A stretch of DNA of 64,000 bases. Source: Ancylobacter defluvii (GTDB lineage Bacteria > Pseudomonadota > Alphaproteobacteria > Rhizobiales > Xanthobacteraceae). A model generated the notes under the pieces. The model was not told the origin of the DNA and did not search any database. It saw only the letters and a program-made list of their open reading frames with translations. Positions 1 to 18,777 of this stretch are shown in pieces. The DNA lies in contig NZ_JAHBGD010000028.1 in assembly GCF_018390605.1 (NCBI RefSeq), positions 1 through 64,000 on the forward strand, read 5' to 3'. Position 1 is the stretch's first letter. Every line of letters starts with the position of its first letter. A program made the position numbers and the translations under genes.

Positions 1-46
1 TCGTTCATCTCGCTGGCGCCATGATCTGGCTCAAATGAATGTCGAT

Positions 47-326
47 CCGACCTAAGCGAATCGCGCTTGATACACTCGCGCTTGGTTGGACATTCATGCC
101 TCTCCACCGGATGGACGACAGTCCATCCTAGGGGTTCGCAAGAACCCTCCATTCTCGGGGGTCAGCCGCTGCTGCATGGTTCGCCGTGCCCGCGCCCGAC
201 CGCCGCGATAGGCGCGTCTCGAAAGGCTCGAGACGCGCTGGGGCACTTAGAGGTCCTTCCGTTCGAGATGTCCTTTCTCAAAGGCACCGCTGTCAGAAGC
301 CGGAATTTTCCGGTCAGATTAGTCGG
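47..326 (+). ncRNA. Candidate retron msr-msd RNA
   Basis: This gene-free stretch upstream of a retron-type reverse transcriptase is packed with inverted repeats. A candidate a1 arm (47-55, CCGAC with one bulged C, then TAA) can pair with a candidate a2 arm (TTAGTCGG, 319-326). Directly after a1 comes GCGA, the context of the priming guanosine in retron Eco1, so G56 is the predicted branch base. Next come two compact msr-like hairpins: 109-116 with 121-128 (8 bp, loop GACA) and 132-137 with 142-147 (6 bp, GCAA tetraloop). The msd candidate is a long interrupted hairpin: 150-157 with 264-270 (one bulge), 186-191 with 241-246, and a perfect 10-bp tip at 212-221 with 229-238. Two smaller hairpins follow at 272-284 and 300-313. 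The folding was done by eye; the exact ends are inference. Confidence 0.55.
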
Positions 327-4347: not shown

Positions 4348-5247
4348 TCAGGCCGACAGATGGTGCCGCGCCGTCACGACGACCTCGCGGGTGAGCGCCG
4401 CCAGCCGATCGGCGACCAGGCGGTTGATCTGCCAGTAGAGGGGAATGTCCAGCGCGGTATCGGGGATCAGCTCCACCAGCCGGCCGGATTGCAGATGCGG
4501 CCGCACCAGCTGGATGGGGTTCATCCCCCATCCCATGCCGGACAGGCTGGCCTCGATGAAGCTCTGCGTCGATGGCAGCCAATGGGTGGGATAGCCGAGA
4601 TCGACGCCGAGCGCCTGCCGCAGCCAGCGGTCCTGCAGCCCGTCCTTCTGGTTGAAGGTCAGCGCCGGGGCGTCGAGGATCGCCTCCGGGGTCACGCCGT
4701 CGGCAAAATGCCGGGCGATGAAGTCGGGGCTCGCCGTCGCAACATAGCGCAGCGCGCCGAGCGACGTCCGGCGGCAGCCCTGGATCGGCTTTTCCACGCT
4801 GGTGACGGCGGCGATCACCCGCCCGCGCTGCAGCCAGTCGGCGGTGTGATCCTGATCGTCGACGGCGATGTTCAGAAGATAGGGCGAGTGCCGGGCGAAG
4901 GCCGACATCGCCGCCACGAACCATGTGCCGAGGCTGTCGGCATTGGTGGCGATGTGCAGCGTCACCCTTTGCCTGGTCGCGGCCGGGTCGATCAGCGCCG
5001 GCAGATGCGCGAGCAATTCGCCTTCGAGCATGCCGACCGTCTCCATGTGCCGGCACAGCCAGTCCCCGGTCTCGGTCGCGGTGCAGGGGCTGCCGCGCGC
5101 GATCAGCACCACGCCCAGACGCTCCTCCAGCTGCTTCACCCGCTGCGAGACGGCGGAAGAGGTGACACCGAGCTGGCGCGCCGCCCTGTCGAAACTTCCG
5201 GTCTGGACCACCGCCGCGACGGCGCGGAGCGCGGAATAATCGAGCAT
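4348..5247 (-). CDS. argP: LysR-family regulator ArgP (arginine/lysine export control)
   Basis: A 299-residue LysR-type regulator. The N-terminal winged helix (residues 1-60, with TGSFDRAARQLGVTSSAVSQ) is followed by the effector domain. The sequence fits the ArgP/LysG subgroup, which senses basic amino acids and activates a divergent exporter gene. The divergent neighbour is indeed a LysE/ArgO exporter with a 100-bp shared intergenic region, the classic arrangement. It starts at ATG 5247 (MLDYSALRAV), typical of the family. Confidence 0.9.
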   Translation of the reverse strand: MLDYSALRAVAAVVQTGSFDRAARQLGVTSSAVSQRVKQLEERLGVVLIARGSPCTATETGDWLCRHMETVGMLEGELLAHLPALIDPAATRQRVTLHIATNADSLGTWFVAAMSAFARHSPYLLNIAVDDQDHTADWLQRGRVIAAVTSVEKPIQGCRRTSLGALRYVATASPDFIARHFADGVTPEAILDAPALTFNQKDGLQDRWLRQALGVDLGYPTHWLPSTQSFIEASLSGMGWGMNPIQLVRPHLQSGRLVELIPDTALDIPLYWQINRLVADRLAALTREVVVTARHHLSA

Positions 5248-5347
5248 GGATCAGTTCTGCTTAATTGGGGCCAGCAAGATTAACTCGTCTGAACCCGATC
5301 GTCGCGCTATCGCACGCGCATCTCATCGGGAAAGCGCCGCGCCTGAC

Positions 5348-5956
5348 ATGAATGTTTCGGTTTTTGTAACAGGCCTGCTGATGGGGCTGAGCCTGATCGT
5401 CGCCATCGGCGCGCAGAATGCCTTCGTCCTGCGCCAGGGACTGCGCCGCGAGCATGTGTTCGCCGTCTGCCTCGCCTGCGCCCTGTCCGATGCCGTGCTG
5501 ATCGTGCTGGGCGTCACCAGCTTCCGGCAGATCGCCGCGCTGCTGCCCTGGCTCGATCCGGTGATGCGCTATGGCGGCGCGGCATTCCTGATCCTCTATG
5601 GCGCCCGGAGCTTCCGCTCCGCCCTGCTCTCCTCCGGAACGCTGGCCGCCGCCGAGGCGAACCCGTCGAGCTTTCGCCGAACGCTTGCCACCTGCCTCGC
5701 GCTGACCTGGCTCAATCCGCATGTCTATCTCGATACCGTCATGCTGCTCGGCACCGTCTCGACCCGCTTCCCCGGGGGCGAGGCGTCGTTTGCGGCCGGC
5801 GCGGCGAGCGGCTCCTTCCTGTTCTTCTTCGCGCTCGGCTATGGCGCGGGCGGGTTGCGGCCGATTTTCGCCAATCCGTCGGCCTGGCGGGTGCTGGAGG
5901 CGCTGATCGCCGTTACCATGTGGATGATCGCCTACCGGCTGGTAAGCGGGGCGTGA
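5348..5956 (+). CDS. argO: LysE/ArgO-family basic amino acid exporter
   Basis: A 202-residue inner-membrane protein with about six hydrophobic helices. The N-terminal signature GLLMGLSLIVAIGAQNAFVLRQG is shared by LysE and ArgO. It exports excess arginine and/or lysine, driven by the membrane potential. ATG 5348 (MNVSVFVTG) is preferred to an in-frame upstream start, since it begins directly with the first membrane helix. It is divergent from argP, whose product most likely activates it when basic amino acids accumulate. Confidence 0.9.
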   Translation: MNVSVFVTGLLMGLSLIVAIGAQNAFVLRQGLRREHVFAVCLACALSDAVLIVLGVTSFRQIAALLPWLDPVMRYGGAAFLILYGARSFRSALLSSGTLAAAEANPSSFRRTLATCLALTWLNPHVYLDTVMLLGTVSTRFPGGEASFAAGAASGSFLFFFALGYGAGGLRPIFANPSAWRVLEALIAVTMWMIAYRLVSGA

Positions 5957-18297: not shown

Positions 18298-18777
18298 GGC
18301 GCTCTCCCACTGACCCGAAGCTGCGACCCGTGGAGACGATCCCTCGCCCGCGCGGCGCCAATGTGCCGCGTCGGTGGCGAGAATGCGCCTCCGTTCGCCG
18401 TCCGCACGGTTTTTGCCGCTTGGCCGGAAGAAGTGGAGCCGTGGCAGCGATGCGTTCGGCGCGCATGTGGAGAGCGCGACCGTTCGATCGATGCCTTCGC
18501 TTGGTACGGGAAACCCGACCGCACGCCCGGCAAGAAGTAGTGCCTCTTCAGTTTCCCGACCTTTGGAGGGCCGACAGAGACCAAAAAAGCCCGCTACGTC
18601 GTTGCTTCAAGTCACGTTCCCAGCTGAGAGCTGAGTGCGCCGGTTTCGCCTCCGGCTACCGATCTTCCTGGCGACTTTCCGGCCTCTTGTCCGGACTTCC
18701 GCCGACCGGCACGCGACCACAGGCACGTGCGAATATTGGGCGAGGGGTGATGTAGGGACATTCGCCGTCACATGCAA
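18298..18777 (-). promoter_or_regulatory. Long leader and candidate promoter of ornithine decarboxylase (speF-type position)
   Basis: On the minus strand a TTGCAT box (18772-18777) and a CTACAT box (18750-18755) with 16 bp between give a leader of about 450 nt. It contains short hairpins, such as CGGG/CCCG around TTT near 18508-18518 and AGCT/AGCT near 18622-18632, and a T6 run near 18584. A frame opening with TTG at 18584 reads through the leader and ends at 18294, overlapping the decarboxylase start by 4 nt (ATGA). Alphaproteobacterial ornithine decarboxylase genes are known to carry the speF leader RNA. I infer such an element here but cannot align it. Confidence 0.4.

Follow-up and report, generated by a model that had tools for sequence, protein, structure and literature searches.

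What RNA is encoded at the very start of this DNA, and how might it serve the three open reading frames that follow it? The window, by which we mean the whole stretch of 64,000 nt analysed, starts with the first base of contig C21 in its genome assembly. The genes downstream of the RNA are the following:

344 to 520, + strand: small ORF of 58 aa starting at ATG 344, putative effector.
555 to 872, + strand: XRE-family repressor gene (HTH_VI; PADLOC HTH_VI 1.5e-28, Pfam HTH_3).
872 to 1840, + strand: retron reverse transcriptase (RT) gene (RT_VI; PADLOC RT_VI 5.8e-80; motifs NAREH, YVDD and ITG).

By this composition (a structured RNA, a 58-aa peptide ORF, an XRE repressor and an RT) the locus is a type VI retron, and the RNA predicted at the window start is the RNA of such an element, a known kind of anti-phage element. 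In the PADLOC search the RT matched the RT_VI model far above those of other retron types, the next best being at 2.5e-39, and the neighbouring gene for a DNA-binding helix-turn-helix (HTH) protein matched the model of the same type. The NAREH, YVDD and ITG of the RT correspond to the NAXXH, YXDD and VTG of retrons; NAXXH and VTG are the motifs of retron RTs, and the V to I change occurs in a validated retron (PMC6868368). The small auxiliary gene is represented by the ORF at 344, which is found at the same position in the homologues. Type VI elements have already been described as an RT with a DNA-binding protein and a small auxiliary protein (PMC8541194), the class being that of Mestre et al. 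2020, which that article cites. An Rfam scan at gathering and permissive thresholds gave no retron family at the locus.

RT homologues sharing 50-65% identity come from Bradyrhizobium, Afipia, Hyphomicrobium and other relatives, and more distant ones from P2-like phages, Mu-like phages, plasmids and Bacillota. The viral contigs scanned with the RT contained no relative. The four-part layout is kept across Alpha- and Gammaproteobacteria and also in Bacillota. The type VI retrons of phages P2_2H1, ST147-VIM1phi7.1, KS5 and MuM16-1 likewise combine the RT with an XRE-type gene that adjoins or overlaps it and, upstream, a gene for a short hypothetical protein. In four Bradyrhizobium loci (L004, at 5001-5923, and L025, L047 and L052) the RT homologue is divided into two overlapping frames by an apparent frameshift.

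The window opens with the end of an insertion sequence, which is no part of the retron, followed by a probable target site and by what is left of the retron promoter:

1 to 51, + strand: right end of an IS5-family insertion sequence (IS), encoding the last transposase residues VHLAGAMIWLK* at 3-38.
52 to 54, + strand: CTA, plausibly duplicated from the target site of the IS; the left IS end at C16:6492 likewise has CTA in front of it.
55 to 79, + strand: remnant of the retron promoter, a spacer with the conserved CGAATC at 57-62 and a −10-like CTTGAT/TTGATA at 66-72.

Bases 1 to about 55 recur in eight further copies in the same genome at 98-100% identity, most of them at contig ends. The transposase matches NF033580 above the cut-off, and the ends of the IS were placed by alignment of the copies. 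Multicopy IS5-family ends lie at many contig ends of this assembly (window 1-54 and C16:6462-6545). At the end of contig C16 stand the operator TTCGCTGACAGCGAA and a −35-like TTTACA; the sole perfect TTCGCTNNNAGCGAA of the genome lies there, 15 bases before the matching IS end. A scripted join of both flanks yields the series of operator, TTTACA, CGAATC spacer and a1 region, which is the layout of the homologues. Synteny around rpsA gave no confirmation of this C16-C21 join.

Loci from Alphaproteobacteria to Staphylococcus and Verrucomicrobia share the palindrome TTCGCTNNNAGCGAA, or a near-match, at roughly −275 to −347 relative to the small ORF. In total, 37 of 42 type VI loci contain a palindromic operator, and in most of them a −35-like element follows at a short distance. 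Scanned freely for promoters, the 5′ region gave an ambiguous result; anchored on the operator, the scan placed −35 and −10 elements downstream of it with p = 6e-6. The −10 position in the window was inferred from locus L003 (TTGACG-17-TAGATT). The palindrome is likely the operator of the XRE protein, which would repress through it. The locus is the same in kind as other type VI retrons, with the difference that in this genome the operator and −35 have probably been cut off from the remainder of the retron by an IS5-family element; because the promoter is probably split in this way, the retron of this strain may have fallen silent or may depend on the IS for its expression.

Downstream of this junction, an RNA with the following elements is predicted:

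109 to 128, + strand: msr-like hairpin 1 (GGATGGAC/GTCCATCC), from sequence and fold; the homologues have a differently sequenced hairpin here.
131 to 148, + strand: msr-like hairpin 2, 100% paired, with two-sided changes in five of seven pairs.
152 to 206, + strand: long, interrupted, fast-evolving msd-like stem, from the window fold in a variable region of the alignment.
212 to 238, + strand: covarying msd-like stem-loop, five pairs with two-sided changes.

The region 30-345 folds far better than its dinucleotide shuffles (z −5.1; 0 of 100). Among nine homologues, hairpin 131-148, stem 212-238 and a long-range helix, X/X′, comprise 15 pairs changed on both sides, against 0 of 500 shuffles; counted by element in the nine-sequence alignment, the two-sided changes fall on five, five and four pairs, respectively. 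Slid structures collapse in the same test, and no shuffle of the 500 matched the observed totals. Covariation thus supports an msr-msd RNA whose conserved hairpins lie upstream of the RT, and the proposal of the initial annotation that a retron RNA precedes the genes was borne out by both the folding excess and the nine homologues. The two short hairpins and longer interrupted region that it described are present in the right order, and the two hairpins that covary are those at 131-148 and 212-238. Its limits for the RNA, 40-330, have to be moved: the left end is nearer 80 than 40, and the conserved fold passes 330 to reach 382, within the small ORF.

The stem that would bring the ends of the template together, a1/a2, was drawn in that annotation between 47-55 and 319-326, with G56 as the branch base priming reverse transcription. 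The strings are as claimed (CCGACcTAA, G56 and TTAGTCGG), eight pairs can be written, and GCGA comes next as in retron Eco1. Against this, a helix of equal quality arises in 77% of shuffles (p = 0.77), the homologous columns form 0-4 of the eight pairs in each of the eight other sequences, and covariation, absence of which across homologues had been named beforehand as refuting the stem, is nil. G56 aligns with G in 3 of 9 sequences and falls in would-be promoter DNA; the spot homologous to the GCGA (CGAATC, 57-62) lies upstream of the probable 5′ end of the RNA. The a2 segment borders a stretch in which the window has more bases than the homologues. This a1 fails because bases 1 to about 55 are a multicopy IS5-family end in the genome, so that it consists of an IS end plus target site. 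We therefore give next to no credence to this stem and branch base; the case shows that a plausible by-eye a1 can be the end of an insertion sequence at a contig edge. Pairing of CGAAT (57-61) with GTTCG (261-265) is also very improbable as the true a1/a2. All nine close homologues can form it, L044 by virtue of a single compensatory change, yet it amounts to five pairs, CGAATC sits between −35 and −10 in the operator-anchored layout and is probably promoter DNA, and GTTCG is already explained by its pairing with X′, which is also changed in L044.

Comparison of the loci suggests a different candidate pair of segments:

88 to 94, + strand: candidate a1 (GGACATT), pairing with 267-273.
267 to 273, + strand: candidate a2 (GATGTCC), directly 3′ of X.
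98 to 98, + strand: candidate priming G within CATGCC (95-100), invariant in 9 of 9 and placed by its position after a1.

Across loci, short segments directly 3′ of X pair with a segment 5′ of hairpin 1. A wide first scan for a1/a2 was weakly significant (p = 0.007); own versus cross-locus pairing in 38 loci, with windows picked after inspection, gave p = 8e-5. In the close set the four core pairs form in 94% of cases, and all their changes are one-sided. Because the windows were picked after inspection, the evidence that 88-94 and 267-273 are a1/a2 is rated as moderate. The candidate a2 shares three bases with the Shine-Dalgarno hairpin described below, and a1/a2 would cross X/X′ as a pseudoknot. 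In validated retrons the priming G comes after a1 (PMC6868368). The window has in common with Retron-Eco1 (Ec86) and the validated retrons (PMC6868368) an RNA upstream of the RT, msr-like hairpins followed by a long stem, NAXXH and VTG-like RT motifs, and a candidate a1/a2 with a G just past a1. It differs from validated retrons in a candidate a1/a2 shorter than their 8-30 bases and in a candidate priming G within TGCC instead of AGC (PMC6868368); unlike in Retron-Eco1 and the validated retrons, its RNA overlaps coding sequence, through X/X′.

The elements around the start of the small ORF are:

256 to 265, + strand: segment X (CTTCCGTTCG), which lies just 5′ of the candidate a2 and supplies the 5′ side of the long-range helix.
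271 to 336, + strand: Shine-Dalgarno hairpin of the small ORF, in which TCCTTTCTCA (271-280) pairs with TGAGAAAGGA (327-336).
373 to 382, + strand: segment X′ (CGAACGGAAG), partner of X, in codons 10-13 of the small ORF.

When the region −115 to −53 was paired with +13 to +45 of the small-ORF start in 38 loci, the best helix scored 21.7 within a locus and 15.3 across loci (p = 1e-17). In 32 diverse loci the combined Fisher p was 1e-17 with base shuffling and 1e-12 with codon shuffling. Helices at this position were found in most type VI loci tested, and in the 38-locus test they were not found in the expected place in L037, L083 and L095, among others. Controls in which X′ was swapped for a later ORF segment or for the HTH start gave p = 0.30 and 0.92; a control pairing an upstream segment (−250 to −187 from the small ORF) with the X′ window likewise exceeded its shuffles (p = 0.001). 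The Shine-Dalgarno stem was tested by own versus cross-locus pairing because it is out of register in the nine-row alignment (57% paired), and it is conserved (p = 1.3e-10, 38 loci); its apical part is extended in the window relative to the homologues. A further hairpin was seen at the start codon. X/X′ and the conserved Shine-Dalgarno hairpin together enclose the start of the peptide.

The peptide has a net charge of +8 and a hydrophobic segment near residues 34-51, and searches of Pfam, PADLOC, NCBIfam and PHROGs gave no family for the small ORF of the window. In nearly all homologues the HTH gene comes after an ORF of some 45-65 codons whose product is cationic and hydrophobic in its C-terminal half; the start-picking script favoured charge and hydrophobicity, so the exact starts are no independent evidence. 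The phage copy L054 is alone among the small ORFs in matching PHROGs, where its function is unassigned. In L066, L067 and L068, HTH_VI-like genes follow a different, non-cationic small ORF, perhaps of another subtype. In type I toxin mRNAs, the product is a short peptide, cationic and hydrophobic, and the RNA fold hides its translation start. The small ORF resembles them in both respects, and its peptide is probably a toxin; the difference is that control would run through the retron RNA and the RT. No homology is claimed, and the locus is not classed with type I toxin-antitoxin systems, in which an antisense RNA acts as antitoxin on the toxin mRNA.

Taking these observations together, we propose a model in which a single RNA, spanning from about 80 to at least 382, would serve the RT as template and also form the 5′ portion of the small-ORF mRNA. 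In the model, the peptide would be a membrane-active effector, and its translation would be blocked as long as X/X′ and the Shine-Dalgarno hairpin stay closed. The RT would prime at the G near 98 and copy X first, and the 5′ end of the msDNA would have the sequence of X′. We regard this as the most probable explanation of the locus, with good if incomplete confidence. Pairing of X with X′ and its copying by the RT would be mutually exclusive; copying X would require opening of the lock, tying reverse transcription to translation of the putative toxin. That the two processes are in fact coupled by competition for X, as first RT template and as ORF lock, so that copying opens the mRNA and toxin output depends on msDNA synthesis, is a more tentative proposal of fairly low probability.

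Both of the helices with the best support, X/X′ and the Shine-Dalgarno hairpin, bear on how the small ORF is translated, and a1/a2 has just moderate support. The conserved RNA might then be a structured leader that controls the small ORF, comparable to type I toxin mRNAs, with the RT template being another RNA. We find this unlikely, since the upstream half contains covarying msr-like hairpins and a long stem in retron order, and the RNA immediately precedes the genes, the arrangement of known retrons (PMC6868368). A somewhat less doubtful possibility, still well behind the model, assigns X/X′ to maturation or stability of the RNA, for instance as an RNase III site freeing the ncRNA from the mRNA, the peptide being restrained as a protein by RT-msDNA. 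The helices are perfect and of about 10 bp, and the RT-msDNA complex restrains other retron effectors (PMC12548924). Against this reading, ribosome-binding site and start codon consistently lie within the stretch closed off by the helix, and the Shine-Dalgarno sequence is itself paired.

Type VI retrons occur in phages, plasmids and chromosomes, and the literature searched says little about their RNA and effector. That search, whose scope lay outside the type-defining paper, returned no description of X/X′, the Shine-Dalgarno hairpin, the operator or a1/a2, an absence that is no proof. The candidate priming site, the operator and the conserved helix over the start of a probable toxin make the proposed mechanism testable with few point mutations. 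Elsewhere in the window, on the − strand at 18441-18741, the Rfam speF leader (18441-18576) lies beside the Alphaproteobacterial sRNA ar45 (18585-18741).
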